Made by a program: the position numbers and the translations under genes
Notes under the pieces: generated by a model
Database searches by the model: none
Told to the model about the DNA's origin: nothing
What the model saw: only the letters and a program-made list of their open reading frames with translations
Part shown: piece by piece, positions 2,104-12,808 of the stretch
How the letters are laid out: every line of letters starts with the position of its first letter
Numbering within the stretch: the first letter of the stretch is position 1
DNA from: a virus
Length of the DNA: 20,589 nucleotides
Direction: 5' to 3' (one strand)
IMG/VR virus record: IMGVR_UViG_3300025889_001175
Span: 1 to 20,589 of that record

Positions 2104-3930
2104 TTACAGTGTGCCGTAACCAACAAGGATCCAAGACCCGCCGTCAAAGCAAACATCTGCCCATTGGCTTGTGCTTAATAATTTCAGCCCGCCAACTGAC
2201 AAAGTAAAGGCTCCACCGCCTGATCTTGTCACTCTGAACCGTGCTCCAGGATATGCATTGGTTGTACTTAATGTGATTGTGCGATTTGCCGTTAACGTTC
2301 CACCGTGCAGAATTTGTTCTGCATTATTTAGCGTCGTGAGCGTAAAGTTTGCATCGCTAACGATAGTCTCAACTCCAGGCTGTGACCGCCTCCATTTTGA
2401 CCCATCGCTGACTAAAAGACCGCCGCCTCCACCTAAATCGCTGCAATACAAACTTGTTCCAGTAAATGATGCGGCAGACGGTAAAAAAGCAATTGGAACA
2501 GAAGGCTGGGGAATTGGCGTGAATACCTCCCTTCCTAGCGCGACAGTGCTGCCATAATAATTACCAGGCATTTCACTGAAATATGCAATTCCGCCACCAA
2601 AAAAAGGCCGCAACATGCTTTCAACGTATGTGCCTGTCGACTTGTATCCACCGCCAACTGCCACCGTAGATGCGGCACCAGCGCCAGACTTATCAAACAG
2701 CACGTTATAGGTTACATACTGTCCAGATAAATACCGCATAAATGAGCCGTGTACACTGTGGTGAGCAGTATTTGCGGTTTGCGAAATCCAGACATCAGCA
2801 TTGCCGTTGTTTCCTTCAAAATATGTCCCACGAATAACAAGACCTACTCCACCCTCTACTCCTGCATCAACACTCTTTATTCCCCATGCTGCCGGGTTTG
2901 CCAGGCTCAAACCAATACCATTACCTTCTACTGTTCCGCCGTCAATCAAGAAGCACGCTGCTCCTGTTGCCAATAGACCGTATGTGTAATTTGTGGCAAT
3001 GATTACATCGCGGAATGCAATTGCGTTTGGGCGAGAAAAATTTGCGTAAGCAAACTGGCCGCCATATTGGTTTAATCGAATTTCGCCCTTGCTAATTGAA
3101 CCTGACAGAATGTCCGTGCCGTTGATGCCATACTCAAATAGTGAGATGTCAAAATCAGTCAGTGACCAATATGCGCAATTATCAATTGATAATCCAATTG
3201 AACCGGCAGCGCGAGCAGGTCCACGCAAAGCAATGCCGCGTATTTCTAAAAACGCGCTAACACCGTCAATAGTGCCGCCTCTATAATCAATACATTTCCC
3301 AGCGTGAGACGGCCATATCATTGTTGACCCTGGCCCGTCGCCTTCAATATGAATGCGGTTGTAAGTGCCGTTTACTGGATCGGCAGTTACTGCGCTGTAA
3401 TCAATGACTAACGGTGAAGAAGTGACATATTTTCCATTGGGAAAATATAGTTTTCCACCAGTTGACACTACTTTTGTGATTGCAGCCTGAATAGCCGCCG
3501 TATCATCAGCCACCCCGTTGCCAACCGCACCAAAATCTTTAACACTCACCGTCTGGCGTAACTTAGCCTGCACAGTAGTGGCAACAGCTCCAGTGCCTGC
3601 TGGGAGATACGAGATTTGCGCCGATGATAAACGATCAGTAAGCCCATTTAGCGACGAATAAACGGTCGTGCCATTCTTATTCATCACACGAATTGAGTAT
3701 TCCTGCGCAACGTAAATATTGGCCGGACTGCCATTCATTGATAAATAGCCGTCTAATGTCCTAATCGGCTGTGCCGCAGGAATAGTTAAAGCAGCGTCCA
3801 AATAAACTTGAATTTGATTAGTTTGTGGATCCAGGTTAGCCGCTCCAATCCAGACATAGCCATATTCCAATGGCTGTCCATCGATATCAGTAAAAATCGG
3901 ATAGCTTGGTTTAATGCTTATCGCGGACAT
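2104..3930 (-). CDS. Tailspike with P22-type head-binding domain and pectate-lyase-like beta-helix
   Basis: The 608-residue protein (P22 gp9 is 667) should form homotrimers on the tail hub that bind, and probably cleave, surface polysaccharide. Residues 1 to about 110 resemble the P22 tailspike head-binding domain (PSYPIFTDIDGQPLEYGYVW, later AQPIRTLDGYLS). Residues about 128-152 (VSVKDFGAVGNGVADDT) are the classic entry to a pectate-lyase-3 right-handed beta-helix, followed by Gly/Asn-rich repeats to about 480. A distinct beta-rich C-terminal region (about 520-608) ends in GSWILVGYGTL. I cannot name catalytic residues by eye. AGGAG eight bases before the ATG gives a strong ribosome site; the ATG overlaps the stop of an upstream frameshifted ORF. 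Confidence 0.9.
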   Translation of the reverse strand: MSAISIKPSYPIFTDIDGQPLEYGYVWIGAANLDPQTNQIQVYLDAALTIPAAQPIRTLDGYLSMNGSPANIYVAQEYSIRVMNKNGTTVYSSLNGLTDRLSSAQISYLPAGTGAVATTVQAKLRQTVSVKDFGAVGNGVADDTAAIQAAITKVVSTGGKLYFPNGKYVTSSPLVIDYSAVTADPVNGTYNRIHIEGDGPGSTMIWPSHAGKCIDYRGGTIDGVSAFLEIRGIALRGPARAAGSIGLSIDNCAYWSLTDFDISLFEYGINGTDILSGSISKGEIRLNQYGGQFAYANFSRPNAIAFRDVIIATNYTYGLLATGAACFLIDGGTVEGNGIGLSLANPAAWGIKSVDAGVEGGVGLVIRGTYFEGNNGNADVWISQTANTAHHSVHGSFMRYLSGQYVTYNVLFDKSGAGAASTVAVGGGYKSTGTYVESMLRPFFGGGIAYFSEMPGNYYGSTVALGREVFTPIPQPSVPIAFLPSAASFTGTSLYCSDLGGGGGLLVSDGSKWRRSQPGVETIVSDANFTLTTLNNAEQILHGGTLTANRTITLSTTNAYPGARFRVTRSGGGAFTLSVGGLKLLSTSQWADVCFDGGSWILVGYGTL

Positions 3931-4047
3931 TATCTAGACTCCTGTTCCTGTTGAATTTGTTGACCAGCCTGCACGGCAGCTTGCAGCCATTGCACTCGTG
4001 AATCTATAGATTGTGGCAGTTTTGCGGCTTTTGCGAAACTGCATCAT
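3930..4047 (-). pseudogene. Small ORF disrupted by an apparent one-base insertion, between the gp16-like gene and the tailspike
   Basis: An ATG directly follows the gp16-like stop (TAAATGATG). As written the frame yields a 37-residue basic peptide ending at 3934 with no protein-like pattern after residue 6. Removing one A from the AAAA run at 4032-4029 joins MMQFRK to AAKLPQSIDSRVQWLQAAVQ and a Gln-rich tail. That gives a 38-residue amphipathic product whose TAA overlaps the tailspike ATG (TAATG), just like other junctions in this operon. The fit at both ends suggests a real small gene with a frameshift, a base-calling error, or programmed slippage. I do not recognise the family. Starting at the internal GTG in the downstream frame would give only 21 residues. 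Confidence 0.62.
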
Positions 4048-6096
4048 TTACTGTTTCCCGGGTATATTTGCCACTTCTCGGGATGCGCTTGGAATGTTTG
4101 ACTGGCGACGCAATAATTCTTTCATAACCTTAATTGCATTTTCTTCGTTAATTCCTCGCGCACGCTCTACTGCAGAGCCTAAAGTTTTTGCAGCCAACCC
4201 AACCAAACCACCTTGAGTAGCTGCTTGCTGCGCTCCTTTTACGCCAGACTGGATAGCCTGTTCTGTTTGACCTTTCAAGCTAGTTGGAGCGACTGCTCCA
4301 AACATGCGGTCGATTTCATTCCCGAACATAAGCTGATTAAGAATGTCATTGTCAAACTTGCCGCCATACTTTGCAGAAGTTTGATTAACCTCATTCAGCG
4401 CGTTAAGCATTTGGATTCGCCCTTGATTATTGCTAGTCAATGAACGCACAGATGTGCCAAGTGCTTTTGCAGCATCAGGCATATCAAGATCAATTTTTGT
4501 TCCAACTGATTCCTGCAATGCATCCAATGCTTGCTTAGTGTCAGAGTAACGCGCATTAGCCGCTGCGTAATCTGAATTGAGATCGCCAAGAGTACGATTC
4601 AGATTGGCTCGCAATCCCTTAACAACTCGTTCTGCCTGCGCGGATAATGGATTTGCAAGATTCTTTTTTGCATAAGATACTTGTGTATCTAAGAATCTTT
4701 TTGCCGTATGAACGCCATATGCATCTGGCGCTTGCACGTTGCTTAGTCGGTCAAGAACATTATTAAAAAGCCGTTGTGATGCCCTATCCCCCTGCAAGTC
4801 AGAGCCTTGTAGGTTTGCTTTTGCAATGCCTTTACTATCAAACTCTACTCGCACGCCCAATTGCTCTAAATCTTGAATAAATTGATTCATAGGGCCGGAC
4901 ACATCAACTTTCGTGCCTTTTAACTGCTGATCAGCAACTCTTTCAAGCATACTTCCAGCATTGCGCCTGGTTGAATCTAAAAATTCAATTCGTTTCTCGA
5001 TGTTCGTTCCAACAATATCGTTTGGCCGATTGGTCATGGCGAACTTTTTATTTTTCTTGCCAATCTCATACAGATTCAGCATTTTCAACATATTGCGACG
5101 ATCGTCATCGCTTGCTGCCTTAATTGCTGTAATTACGCCTGGGTCCCATCCCTGTTTGATCAAGTCTCCGGCCATATCGTCATTAACAACCTGAGTCCCT
5201 GAAAGACGATATCCAACATTTTCTTCGTTGTATGGGTCTTTTGTAATTGATTCCTTTATTTGGCGAGCCTTATTTGGAGTGAGTTTTTCTCGCGCAGTTG
5301 CAATGATAGACCGCGCAGATTCTCCGATTGTAGGTTGAGGCAGTGCCGCCGCAGCTTCTGGCGTTGTGGGGGCTGGCAATCCTAGTTCTCCAGCTCTCAC
5401 AGCGGGAGAGCGTATTCCTGCGCCTTCTGGAGCCGTCATCCTAGCCGCAGCGCCAATGCCTGCACGAGCCAAACTTGGAGCGAATGGCGCAACTCCTCCG
5501 GCCAATCCGGCAGCGACTTGTGCAGCAGTGCCGCCGCCCATTTCCGCCGTTGTTTGCGCAGCACCGCCACCAATTGCACCGCCTAGAATTTGCTTCCCTG
5601 CTTGTTCCGACAGTGCTGCACCAACTTTTTGTGCTGTTTGAGATTGGGCGAGCATTTGAGTTGCCTTGCCTGCCGCAGTAACGCCACCAGCACCAGCCGC
5701 TCCACCCGCAATTGATTGCACAATGCGTTCCGCTTCAGTATCTGCTTGCGGCACGCCAAGGCGCGTTAATAAATCGCCCATCGCCTCTGTTGGCATTTTG
5801 TATCTAGTGCCAAGAATCGTATTAATTCCAGACACCAACGGATCGCCAACCAATTGAGCCAAACCAGCCGCGCCAGCGCCAGCAATCGCACCCGGTATTG
5901 CACCTACGCCGCCGATTGGAGCGCCAGCAAGTGCGCCTAATGCAGCGCCTGCAGCTGGCAGTGCTAGCCCGCGCGTGGCAGCGCCTGCAAGGCCAGTTAG
6001 CGTAGTTTCCGCTTCTTTCTGTGATGCTGCCCACTCTTCAGGAGACATAGGCGCTGTCTGCTTAGTCTGAGACGCTAGCCACTGTTCGGGACTCAT
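4048..6096 (-). CDS. P22 gp16-like DNA ejection (DNA transfer) protein
   Basis: The 682-residue product (P22 gp16 is 609) is the third and largest of three consecutive ejection proteins, in the P22 order 7-20-16. In P22 gp16 leaves the virion and helps DNA cross the host inner membrane. Residues about 35-90 and 130-215 are Gly/Ala-rich and hydrophobic, with repeated small-residue motifs (GAALGALAGAPIGGVG) suited to membrane insertion. The C-terminal half is helical and charged. The first 26 residues carry a tandem motif, MSPEQWLASQ then MSPEEWAASQ. The ATG overlaps the gp20-like stop (ATGA). Assignment rests on position, size and composition rather than on a diagnostic motif. Confidence 0.8.
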   Translation of the reverse strand: MSPEQWLASQTKQTAPMSPEEWAASQKEAETTLTGLAGAATRGLALPAAGAALGALAGAPIGGVGAIPGAIAGAGAAGLAQLVGDPLVSGINTILGTRYKMPTEAMGDLLTRLGVPQADTEAERIVQSIAGGAAGAGGVTAAGKATQMLAQSQTAQKVGAALSEQAGKQILGGAIGGGAAQTTAEMGGGTAAQVAAGLAGGVAPFAPSLARAGIGAAARMTAPEGAGIRSPAVRAGELGLPAPTTPEAAAALPQPTIGESARSIIATAREKLTPNKARQIKESITKDPYNEENVGYRLSGTQVVNDDMAGDLIKQGWDPGVITAIKAASDDDRRNMLKMLNLYEIGKKNKKFAMTNRPNDIVGTNIEKRIEFLDSTRRNAGSMLERVADQQLKGTKVDVSGPMNQFIQDLEQLGVRVEFDSKGIAKANLQGSDLQGDRASQRLFNNVLDRLSNVQAPDAYGVHTAKRFLDTQVSYAKKNLANPLSAQAERVVKGLRANLNRTLGDLNSDYAAANARYSDTKQALDALQESVGTKIDLDMPDAAKALGTSVRSLTSNNQGRIQMLNALNEVNQTSAKYGGKFDNDILNQLMFGNEIDRMFGAVAPTSLKGQTEQAIQSGVKGAQQAATQGGLVGLAAKTLGSAVERARGINEENAIKVMKELLRRQSNIPSASREVANIPGKQ

Positions 6097-7535: not shown

Positions 7536-8255
7536 TTAGAATCGCCCGAAAGATGAGGCTCCTGCTGACGAGGCCGATATTCCGCCTCCAAGTGATGCCC
7601 CGCCAGCGCCAGCTCCACCAAAGCCGCCAAAACCGCCAGCGCCGGCAGCTAATGCGCCAATGCTCATCAAGTCTTTGAACGACTGCCTAACGACACTGCC
7701 ACGCGCCAATTGTCCTCCAGCCAATGCTGCACCACGTTGCGCTAGCAAGTCGCCAATTGCTCCTGCGCTTTCCATTCCTGCAGCACCTTGACCGGCTGCT
7801 GATTGCTGGCCAAGCGCTGTAAGACCGCCAAGCCGTGAGTATTGTTGAGCAATTTGACTCTCTAGCATCTGTGGGCGAAATTGCGCTAGTGCTGCCTGTA
7901 TATTGCCACCTCTAAGCCCGCCAGTCGCCGAGGCTTGCTGTAGCAGTGCCTCCTCACCTTGACGAACAGACGCTTGGAATAGTGGGCTTTGCTCTAGCGC
8001 GCTAATAGCCTGCTGCTGTTCGGGAGCGCCACGTAGTCCAATCAATGCTTGTTGCTGCTGTAATGCTGGCTGTCCAGCTTCAACGTATGGACGCAATAGC
8101 TCGGTCAGTATGTCAAACTGCCGTCGCTGTTCCTCAATCGCCAGATTGCTTGCCGCAGCTTGTGTGCCTGCGGCGGATTCTGCCGCTTTTGCCTGTTGCT
8201 TCGCGCCAGTAATACCGCCAACTACTGAACCAATTGCATTGCCAATAAAACTCAT
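7536..8255 (-). CDS. P22 gp7-like DNA ejection protein
   Basis: I chose the ATG at 8255, which overlaps the upstream stop (ATGA) and has GGAGGGCGG in front of it, giving 239 residues (P22 gp7 is 229). The in-frame ATG at 8270 lies before that ribosome site. The N-terminus has a Gly-rich short hydrophobic stretch (MSFIGNAIGSVVGGITGAK), then a Gln/Ala-rich helical body (about 20-165), and a Gly/Ala/Ser-rich low-complexity end (GAGGFGGFGGAGAGG). This composition is typical of the first DNA-transfer protein in P22-like and related podoviruses. It is expected inside the capsid and to be ejected at infection. It starts the gp7-gp20-gp16 run. Confidence 0.78.
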   Translation of the reverse strand: MSFIGNAIGSVVGGITGAKQQAKAAESAAGTQAAASNLAIEEQRRQFDILTELLRPYVEAGQPALQQQQALIGLRGAPEQQQAISALEQSPLFQASVRQGEEALLQQASATGGLRGGNIQAALAQFRPQMLESQIAQQYSRLGGLTALGQQSAAGQGAAGMESAGAIGDLLAQRGAALAGGQLARGSVVRQSFKDLMSIGALAAGAGGFGGFGGAGAGGASLGGGISASSAGASSFGRF

Positions 8256-8716
8256 TTTGCCGCCCTCCAATCCTGCCTAGTCATGCCTAGAATATGAACG
8301 CCGATCAGCGCGCCGTTTTTCATACATGCATCGCGCCGCATGCCCTCGTTTTTGAATCCTAATTTCATGCAGTAGTTTTTAGCTGTATTTAAACCGTCAA
8401 TAATATAGGCGGTAACGCGCTGTATGTGCTGTTGAGCGAATGCCCACATTAGACACATCTTCCCGAATTCCCTAGAGTGTGGCAATGCGCGTTTTGTCAG
8501 TAGCGCATGAATATCAATTTCAATAAAGCCAGATTCAATAATCATAAAAGCGCCAACCTGCTCACCATTCAGACGAGCAGATAGATATTTTACGTTCGGG
8601 TGGTCAATTGGAGCAGCCGCGCGATGATCATGCCCTACGCGCGTGATATATGGATCGTCAAATAGATCGCTGATCGTGTGCAGGTCTTTTACATGTTCCA
8701 GCGACAAAGAAATCAC
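8252..8716 (-). CDS. P22 gp14-like protein with GNAT acyltransferase fold (DUF2824 type)
   Basis: The 154-residue protein (P22 gp14 is 172) sits exactly where gene 14 lies in P22, between needle region and gp7. The sequence has the rhythm of a GNAT fold: NVKYLSARLNGEQVGAFMI (strands 2-3), IEIDIHALLTKRALPHSREF with the helix that should hold acetyl-CoA, HIQRVTAYIIDGLNTAKNYC and KLGFKNEGMRRDACMKNG, the usual carboxy end of GNAT proteins. No classic R/Q-x-x-G-x-G/A pyrophosphate loop is obvious, so it may have lost catalysis or have a relaxed loop. In P22, gp14 affects morphogenesis or efficiency of infection in a poorly defined way; a similar role here is inference. Confidence 0.77.
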   Translation of the reverse strand: MISLSLEHVKDLHTISDLFDDPYITRVGHDHRAAAPIDHPNVKYLSARLNGEQVGAFMIIESGFIEIDIHALLTKRALPHSREFGKMCLMWAFAQQHIQRVTAYIIDGLNTAKNYCMKLGFKNEGMRRDACMKNGALIGVHILGMTRQDWRAAK

Positions 8717-10429: not shown

Positions 10430-11838
10430 TAGTATGCCAACCCTTCAAGCTGTGCCTCAAGCCTAGCAAAAGATAGATGAGCCTGGCTGTTGCCACTAAA
10501 GCGCTGGATGCGCCAATTGCGCATGTGCCCTTGCTGAAACCACACCAAGCGCTTTTTTGTGTTGCCGTTAGTTCCGACTTTAATGTATCGCTCTTGGCTC
10601 CATGAGAGTCCATCCAGTGAATAGCTTGTGCTGATCTGCGGATCAACACCAATTGCGACACGCCCGGTCAAGCTCACTAGCTCAAGCTCATTAAAGAGTG
10701 CGCCTTTCCCATCGTTGTAGACAATCATTGTGCCGAATTCCCATCGCACAATCTGGCCCCAATGTTCTCCGATGGTGTCCACCATGTAACCAACGTTGCT
10801 TGATTGCGGATCGCCTACTAGCCATTTGTCATAAGCAAAGACGAAATTTCGTGCTCGATACTGGCTAAAACCAGTCGTCGAGGTGGTAAGCGTACACCAC
10901 ACTTGATCGCCAAGCGCTTCGGATGCTGCTGCGTCGTAGACTAAAGTGCGATCCGGCAAATGTACGTATAAGTGCTGGTGACTCTTATCGTTGCGCGTCT
11001 CAAGTTTCACGCTAGAGAGTTGTGTCTCTGTGTAGCTTAGTAGGATTTCATCAATTTCTTGTGTACTGATTTTCTGCGCTTGACCGTTTGCGCCGATGTA
11101 AATTGCTGGAGCCTCATTCCTGCCGCTGCCTAAAAACGCCACTGATTCGGTGTAGATGCAGCAGGCAAACGTACCTACAACGCCCTTTTGTATTTGCGCC
11201 CCGTCTATGCGCTCAAACGGGAAGAACTCGCCACCAACGTTATCGAACACCTCAATAGTGTTGCGGTTGAGCGCATAAACCTCATTGCGAACTTTGAGCA
11301 ATGCAACAACCGGGTCCGGGTCAACCTCAGACGAGCCGTATTTCAACGGGTTAACCTGCGTTGGGTCTGATAGCTCAGTCACAACCAAAAACTCGCCATC
11401 GGTTGTCATGAAATAGCCATCGACCCAAGCAAAATCTAAAACTATTCCTAGATCTGGGTCTGTAACCTGCGTTAGTGTTGCCCCGTCCCAGTAGTAAAGG
11501 CGACCGCCAGATGCGATAGCGAGCCTATCAAAGCTGTAATCAAACGTCACCAGAGAATCAACTGGCCCGCCAACGTCGCCAAGCTCAGTTACAGTGCCAT
11601 TGCTCGCCACTGTGACAAGTTTCGTTCCCATGACGCGATAGCACGTGCCCTGCCAGTTAACCCCGCCACGATCTATCCCAGGACCGGAACCATTGGCAAC
11701 CAATCCATCTGCAGGGCGTAAAAACCCGTTACTAATGCCAGATTGCTTAGGTACAGGAATTAGATTGACAGGGTAAGACGTGCGCAGGTCTGGCCCGTTG
11801 TCCGTATAGATGCCGTTAAGGATGCTAATCTGGGTCAT
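10429..11838 (-). CDS. P22 gp10-like packaged-DNA stabilisation (tail hub) protein
   Basis: The 469-residue protein (P22 gp10 is 472) should form the hexameric hub beneath gp4 that seals DNA in the head and holds needle and tailspikes. The start at 11838 overlaps the endonuclease stop (ATGA) and gives the typical beginning MTQISILNGIYTDNGPDLRT; an ATG 15 bases upstream is less likely. The body is a beta-propeller-like array of short strands with repeated aromatic motifs (GGRLYYWDGATLTQV, VDGYFMTTDGEFLVV, NRNTIEVFDNVGGEFFPFER). The order gp4, gp10, needle, gp14 supports the call. A homing endonuclease lies immediately before it but does not interrupt it. Confidence 0.88.
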   Translation of the reverse strand: MTQISILNGIYTDNGPDLRTSYPVNLIPVPKQSGISNGFLRPADGLVANGSGPGIDRGGVNWQGTCYRVMGTKLVTVASNGTVTELGDVGGPVDSLVTFDYSFDRLAIASGGRLYYWDGATLTQVTDPDLGIVLDFAWVDGYFMTTDGEFLVVTELSDPTQVNPLKYGSSEVDPDPVVALLKVRNEVYALNRNTIEVFDNVGGEFFPFERIDGAQIQKGVVGTFACCIYTESVAFLGSGRNEAPAIYIGANGQAQKISTQEIDEILLSYTETQLSSVKLETRNDKSHQHLYVHLPDRTLVYDAAASEALGDQVWCTLTTSTTGFSQYRARNFVFAYDKWLVGDPQSSNVGYMVDTIGEHWGQIVRWEFGTMIVYNDGKGALFNELELVSLTGRVAIGVDPQISTSYSLDGLSWSQERYIKVGTNGNTKKRLVWFQQGHMRNWRIQRFSGNSQAHLSFARLEAQLEGLAY

Positions 11839-12521
11839 GATTTCGCCTTGCAATTTTCAAAATGCCATCTACGCATTGCATTTCCGCCAATTTTCCCACA
11901 GTGTGGGCATTCAATTTTTGTTTGAATGCGCCCACTAAGTGCGACAGATGCCCTTTTGCGTTCTTCGTTGCTTCGCGTTTGACCAGTTCTACTTTTGTTT
12001 CCTGTAACCCACTCACGCTGCGCAGACTTCCATTCATCAGTGTGTTTATATCCGAGAGAACGTTTTTTTCCTCTGTGGGCATCTGACATTTTTTGACGCA
12101 TTTCTTCCGTGTGAGTAAAACCATTCGCCTTCACAGACGCTGAGATTTTTGCACGCACATCAGCAGAAACAACTTTACCGCGATGTGCCGCGCCGACCTT
12201 TTCTCGCCATTCTTTCGTCTTCGCCCATCCGGAAGTTCCATCACCACCATCTGTAAGATTGCATAGCCTGATACCTGTCATGCGAAGTTGAGATATGCGT
12301 TCTTGTTCAATCAAGAATGCAAGTTCTTCATCAAGATCGGTTGCAACCATGCGGACATAAAACCCGCCGGCCTTACGCTGAGTCCTCTGCCAAAATTCAT
12401 TTCTATGATGATGACTTCGGACTGCATAACGCTTTCCAGTGCCTTTTCCAACATAGAAAACAGCCCCCGTGTCTGAGCGAAGATGCTCATAGACGTAGAA
12501 GCGATTTTCTGATGTTGACAT
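11835..12521 (-). CDS. Free-standing GIY-YIG homing endonuclease with NUMOD3-like repeats and C-terminal zinc finger
   Basis: The 228-residue enzyme (start 12521, six bases after the upstream stop) cuts DNA lacking its own gene and promotes its spread. The GIY-YIG signature is at residues 9-25 (YVY, then VFYVGKGTGKRY); basic residues R31 or R35 and acidic E72 or E74 in LIEQERI are likely catalytic. The segment about 91-195 holds NUMOD3-like DNA-binding motifs (GWAKTKEWREKVGAAHRGK; THTEEMRQKMSDAHRGKK). C205, C208, H220 and C224 form a CCHC zinc finger (ECPHCGKIGG). The gene is coupled to gp10 by ATGA and to the preceding gene by close spacing, so it appears domesticated in the late operon. Its target site is unknown. 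Confidence 0.92.
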   Translation of the reverse strand: MSTSENRFYVYEHLRSDTGAVFYVGKGTGKRYAVRSHHHRNEFWQRTQRKAGGFYVRMVATDLDEELAFLIEQERISQLRMTGIRLCNLTDGGDGTSGWAKTKEWREKVGAAHRGKVVSADVRAKISASVKANGFTHTEEMRQKMSDAHRGKKRSLGYKHTDEWKSAQREWVTGNKSRTGQTRSNEERKRASVALSGRIQTKIECPHCGKIGGNAMRRWHFENCKAKS

Positions 12522-12526
12522 GATGT

Positions 12527-12808
12527 TCACCACTTTACGCGGTTACTCCACCATGCCGCGCTCATCTTGCCTTTGGCGATGTTGCCAGCGTGGCGCGCCT
12601 TGAATGATTCGCGTCTCGCCTTATCCGCTGCACTTTCGCCTTCACGCTTTGGTGATCCGCTAACGCCTTGTTGACCGAACCTAATCGTTTTGATTAGGTC
12701 GCCAGACTTAGCAACGACAACATGCGACTTGGTTGGATGAGAAGGCGTGCGCTTAGGCTTGTTATAGCCCTCGACGCCTGCACGTGTTAAGCGTGAATCT
12801 TGTTTCAT
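12527..12808 (-). CDS. Small basic phage protein ending in SAAWWSNRVKW (DUF5872-like), hypothetical
   Basis: I use the ATG at 12808, which overlaps the upstream stop (ATGA), giving 93 residues. The sequence is very basic and starts MKQDSRLTRAGVEGYNKPKR, with an inner SHVVVAKSGDLIKTIRFGQQ block and the ending ARHAGNIAKGKMSAAWWSNR. This pattern strongly resembles a small phage and bacterial family I know as DUF5872, of unknown function; the name is from memory. Charge and conserved aromatic end would suit a nucleic-acid-associated or virion-internal protein, which is inference. It sits directly before the homing endonuclease. Confidence 0.78.
   Translation of the reverse strand: MKQDSRLTRAGVEGYNKPKRTPSHPTKSHVVVAKSGDLIKTIRFGQQGVSGSPKREGESAADKARRESFKARHAGNIAKGKMSAAWWSNRVKW

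Follow-up and report, generated by a model that had tools for sequence, protein, structure and literature searches.

A probable recombination scar ahead of a tailspike gene: the orphaned tail of an alternative ejection-protein allele

The window (the whole 20,589-nt stretch of viral DNA analysed here) carries a gp16-like gene followed, on the same strand, by a tailspike gene. The short stretch between them can be read in two frames, one that has a start codon and one that resembles protein-coding sequence and ends at the tailspike start. An earlier note on this DNA proposed that a small gene lies here, broken by one extra A. Whether the stretch is a damaged gene, a gene read in some unusual manner or a remnant of something larger is the question addressed below. 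The relevant features are as follows.

4048–6096, minus strand: gp16-like (ejection protein) gene, B-type allele, 682 codons, stop TAA at 4050–4048.
3934–4047, minus strand: bridging ORF of 37 codons in the non-tail frame, from the gp16-like stop to 3 nt short of the tailspike ATG.
4037–3930, minus strand: putative orphaned A-type C-terminal tail, FAKAAKLPQSIDSRVQWLQAAVQAGQQIQQEQESR, stop TAA at 3932–3930, without an in-frame ATG.
4038–4047, minus strand: predicted recombination junction, bounded by the stop/start edge of the B-type gene (ATG 4047–4045) and by 4038, the first A-type-homologous base.
4029–4032, minus strand: AAAA run, with the same letters in the intact A-type gene of contig L009.
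3939–3943, minus strand: AGGAG, Shine-Dalgarno-like, for the tailspike, 8 nt 5′ of the tailspike ATG and within the leftover tail.
2104–3930, minus strand: tailspike gene, with a P22-type head-binding domain and a pectate-lyase-like domain.
3742–4687, no strand: substitution patch relative to contig L002, 61 substitutions in 946 nt, flanks near-identical.

Two ATG codons in succession (4047–4042, minus strand) directly follow the gp16-like TAA at 4050–4048, and the earlier note was right that the first of them, at 4047, abuts this stop. The frame opened there runs for 37 codons and is closed by TAG at 3936–3934, 3 nt ahead of the tailspike ATG (3930). The other frame ends, as had also been described, in a stop that shares one base with the tailspike ATG (TAATG, 3932–3928). 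The arrangement is that of the free-standing tail ORFs of relatives described below, with an ATG abutting the upstream stop and a tail stop overlapping the tailspike ATG, except that ATG 4047–4045 opens the 37-codon frame and not the tail frame. A search for promoters and terminators near the scar returned nothing beyond chance.

The tail peptide FAKAAKLPQSIDSRVQWLQAAVQAGQQIQQEQESR has strong homologues at the same place in other contigs (E 7e-18 to 1e-8, in a small database), matching the extreme C-terminus of the gene before the tailspike in L009, L029, L027, L020, L036 and L037. In L009 an 822-codon open frame, which carries the identical TTTCGCAAAAGCCGCAAAACTGCCACAATC in frame, ends in FNDFAKAAKLPQSIDARVQWLQSAVQAGRQIEQEQEQE and contains an AAAA run identical to that of the window; the run is also identical in the intact genes of L090 and L091. 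A wider scan placed the tail in frame in 78/78 complete genes of this kind (A-type), with the stop nearly always touching the tailspike ATG. A profile of these A-type tails also recovered the scars of L172/L173, which are near-identical to that of the window (E = 2e-19). In the family library search, A-type proteins fall in PHROG 6704, a family of unknown function, and their relatives are annotated in phage records as transglycosylase or DNA transfer protein. When the C-terminal part of the A-type protein was modelled (mean pLDDT 70), a helix was placed in the tail at residues 442–465; the model is too uncertain to tell whether the tail docks on the body.

In the window the tail is not continuous in frame with an A-type body; the upstream gene is B-type and lies in a different frame. 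Judged from these homologies, the tail frame is beyond chance and is coding-derived sequence, the tail of an alternative gp16-like allele. The small gene proposed earlier thus stands in part: the second frame does derive from coding sequence and does have homologues at the same place, but it was the tail of a gp16-like allele and not originally a separate gene. The window's own variant of the tail had no copies in an exact search of viral contigs, and the tail had no match in a bacterial genome collection, where the A-type body gave one weak match, to a Pirellulaceae MAG, too little for assigning a host. A DNA search of isolated phage records with positions 3700–4600 gave chance-length matches only.

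For the B-type protein of the window, no Pfam or PHROG match was found in the family libraries, and phage records yielded one match, to a putative ejection protein from Pseudoalteromonas phage H6/1 (40 %, across half of the window's protein). Close relatives of the B-type gene (L004–L006) end in SREVARF.GNR, the motif SREVA..G. being shared with the window gene, and in these contigs the tailspike ATG comes directly after the stop with no leftover. By blastn, the window matches L009 at 6194–5669 and again from 4038 onward at 81 %; homology to L004/L006 fills 5994–4069, and 5955–4069 matches only these B-type contigs, at ~72 %. The closest relative therefore changes abruptly at both edges of the swapped segment, the pattern of a mosaic boundary. 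As DNA homology to L009 starts exactly at 4038, the conflict of frames sits at the junction (4047–4038), upstream of the AAAA run. The proposal that an extra A in that run (4032–4029) is the lesion can accordingly be set aside, the intact gene of L009 having the identical run.

The feature is very probably a recombination scar, the orphaned tail of an alternative ejection-protein allele, recurrent in related P22-like phages. The ancestor would have been a phage with an A-type gp16-like gene that overlapped the tailspike start with its C-terminal tail. Replacement by a B-type allele would have followed, with the right crossover within the last ~110 nt of the A-type gene, leaving ~108 nt of tail coding sequence between the B-type stop and the tailspike. 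Here the leftover is out of frame with the ATG beside the B-type stop; elsewhere a leftover of this kind is in frame and gives a free-standing ORF of 36–40 codons. The scar of the window may have been born out of frame, or may have arisen via an earlier intact small ORF.

Long remnants of the A-type tail are present at 8/80 B-type loci and shorter ones, in a gap of 62–65 nt, at 14/80. Most other B-type loci retain no more than a ribosome-binding site in a short spacer; its sequence is often CAGGAGAACCAATAAATG, which is the last codons of the A-type tail plus the tailspike ATG; CAGGAGAACCA, the equivalent of the tailspike Shine-Dalgarno, is retained in B-type relatives. The scar-bearing relatives are P22-like, with P22-type coat, scaffold and head-completion genes. 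In several of them (L214/L252, L229/L254, L216–218 and L233) an ATG overlapping or abutting the stop of the B-type gene opens the frame of the remnant, which stands as a free ORF, 36–40 codons long (MTHFANAAKLPQSLDARVQWLQSAVQTGRQFDQENQ in L214/L252). L253, L271 and L264 have this free tail too, there preceded by a DNA-transfer gene of PHROG 770; the sequence ahead of the tail is unrelated between L252 and L253, yet their tails are almost alike. Intact homologues between the gp16-like and tailspike genes, which the earlier note had named as support for its small gene, are found (L214/L252, L216–218, L233, L253 and L264).

Between the tails of L216 and L233, 12/15 changes are at third positions. 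This was dropped as a sign of selection on free-standing ORFs, since the fused A-type tail nearest to one is not the one nearest to the other, and the changes may predate the split.

Several further arrangements were seen at this boundary. In 14 contigs (L204, L208, L211, L212, L215, L220, L222, L226, L228, L236, L242, L243, L247 and L249) the gap is 62–65 nt and, in another frame, encodes ALNALP.VQP-stop; this may be where a third gp16-like allele ends, and would then make a nested scar. An extra short ORF (MLATLRKWIAWLLAWLRSFF-like, amphipathic or membrane-like) lies between the tail and the tailspike head domain in L233, L351, L354, L357, L361 and L108, and is sometimes fused to the tailspike frame. 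At L254:2600-2620 the tail stop and tailspike start read TACTG, not TAATG, and the tail frame runs on; the site is close to the contig end and may not be real.

Two contigs from other samples, L002 and L003, have the same junction as the window in the same out-of-frame state. A sequencing or assembly slip at the AAAA run of a single contig, which had been suggested in the earlier note and has that suggestion as its sole ground, is hardly credible against three contigs that share the state, an identical run in the intact genes of L009, L090 and L091, and 8 differences between the tails of the window and L002, which rule out copies of one assembly. The window differs from L002/L003 by 61 substitutions in a sharply bounded 946-nt patch (4687–3742), with near identity on either side. 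Sequence comparison identifies this patch as a second, later (recent) recombination tract that runs over the scar and covers the end of the gp16-like gene and the start of the tailspike, both alleles being scarred. Two clearly diverged alleles with the scar imply an old scar that recombination has transferred on at least one further occasion. Between L002 and L009, third-position differences number 2/31 in the tail and 36/100 in the adjacent tailspike (p = 0.001); on this comparison, the tail itself is exchanged by recombination.

The substitutions between the scar alleles also bear on whether either frame is expressed. Read in the tail frame, the eight between the window and L002 fall at five third, three first and no second positions, and positions 1 and 2 of this frame change at 4 %, compared with 16 % at gp16-like third positions (Fisher p = 0.008). 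This pattern looks like protein-level constraint on the tail frame, and it runs counter to pure decay, which would not conserve first and second positions; recombination with intact donors would. As L002 resembles L009 far more in the tail than in the adjacent tailspike, exchange with intact A-type tails can import a constraint-like pattern, and with only eight substitutions the pattern is not claimed as evidence of expression.

The same figures, with 0/8 changes at third positions of the 37-codon frame, would fit a tail peptide that is still made, by ribosomes that initiate on the ATG adjoining the gp16-like stop and slip +1 at the Phe-Arg pair at 4038–4033. Such a shift is conceivable by analogy, Phe followed by Arg CGN being among the known types of +1 site (PMC3498833). 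However, frequent recombination with fused donors explains the pattern too, RNA structure at the scar is not beyond that of shuffles (z = +1.04) and many relatives live without the tail, so that continued synthesis is unlikely. Programmed slippage at the AAAA run, raised in the earlier note, gained no positive evidence: stimulatory structure is lacking and the run is just four A. It is likewise unlikely that the tail is a detachable part, which several lineages that lost it from the ejection protein would produce on its own as a small protein, and which the lineage of the window would still produce at a low level by a +1 shift just after the start codon. That the 37-residue frame is itself a gene is very improbable. 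It is open, and its ATG adjoins the upstream stop, but all eight allele substitutions fall at its first and second positions (third-position changes 0/8, expected 6, P = 0.002), an anti-coding pattern. Homologues of this frame, which had been named as the finding that would count against the 38-residue repair, were absent outside the scar, except where the tail itself is read in the shifted frame.

A genuine small gene of this lineage, once an intact free-standing tail like those of L214/L253 and lost by a later one-base change near its start, is a real possibility, though it falls somewhat short of an even chance. Intact free-standing homologues do occur at the same place, and their ATG, like that of the window, adjoins the upstream stop and lies at the same distance, to within one base, from TTTCGC. 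However, the tail of the window is closest to the fused tail of L009 (89 % identical; 87 % over 32 residues in a separate search) and not to the free-standing tails of L252/L253 (75 %), no L009-type tail was found intact and free-standing, and the scar may have been out of frame from birth.

Reinitiation falls steeply with distance after termination and is nearly abolished by about 20–38 nt (PMC10666635). A swapped gene that ended 117 nt before the tailspike would be uncoupled from it. Every long scar listed has an ATG or GTG at −4, −1 or 0 of the upstream stop (L233 has both a GTG at −4 and an ATG at −1), and the long-scar ORFs stop within 3 nt of the tailspike ATG, except in L233; the window achieves this in the non-tail frame. 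A bridging ORF may therefore keep translation of the tailspike coupled to the upstream gene, a suggestion to which nearly even weight is given. The out-of-tail frame also ends ≤20 nt from the tailspike ATG in 21/81 fused A-type tails, so the bridging ORF of the window could be due to chance, although in 0/81 does it come as close as 3 nt. The end of the leftover is the part retained in most relatives, and the many B-type phages with no leftover beyond the ribosome-binding site indicate that the tail is dispensable. The leftover is probably kept for the tailspike ribosome-binding site and for the homology that enables allele swaps.

Two other ORFs lie elsewhere in the window. One at 11835–12533 (minus strand), next to the gp10-like head-closure gene, has a GIY-YIG-like start (recognized by eye) and a NUMOD3 motif, and probably encodes a homing endonuclease. 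Another at 8252–8716 (minus strand), beside the gp7-like DNA ejection gene, is weakly GNAT-acetyltransferase/DUF2824-like.

With donor, recipient and recombinant types all visible, the locus shows how the boundary with the tailspike gene keeps a legible scar once the ejection-protein gene has been swapped. Such scars have repeatedly come to look like tiny genes, or have turned into them. Phages commonly have small ORFs between their virion genes, most of which lack an explanation; orphaned tails may account for some of them. Retention of leftovers for the ribosome-binding site of the next gene and for a translation relay is an idea that could be tested. A search of one paper library found no published description of this scar.

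Several known systems offer comparisons. In relatives, the leftover has start/stop overlaps of −4, −1 or 0 on either side, and the window comes close to this; such overlaps resemble termination-reinitiation pairs (ATGA, TAATG; PMC10666635), with the difference that coupling here would run through a leftover mini-ORF. The B-type gene occupies the place of P22 gp16 and the PHROG 770 DNA transfer protein, after gp7- and gp20-like genes and before the tailspike, and by synteny would share their function; in L253 and L264 the gene ahead of the free tail is itself a PHROG 770 gene, whereas the B-type protein of the window has no PHROG match. The leftover corresponds to the in-frame C-terminal tail of PHROG 6704 members such as L009 and L029, of which the window keeps the last ~36 codons only, without start or body. 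Exchange at conserved gene-boundary sequences is the model of mosaicism in tailed phages summarised in Phamerator (PMC3233612), and ejection proteins are described as mosaically conserved (PMC8954989). As in that exchange and in P22-like mosaicism, alleles of a virion gene appear to have been swapped, with the junction at the gene edge in a conserved boundary stretch. Unlike the usual boundary exchange, the boundary here consists of the final ~100 nt of the very gene that was replaced, and this piece persists either as a legible remnant or as a mini-ORF standing by itself.
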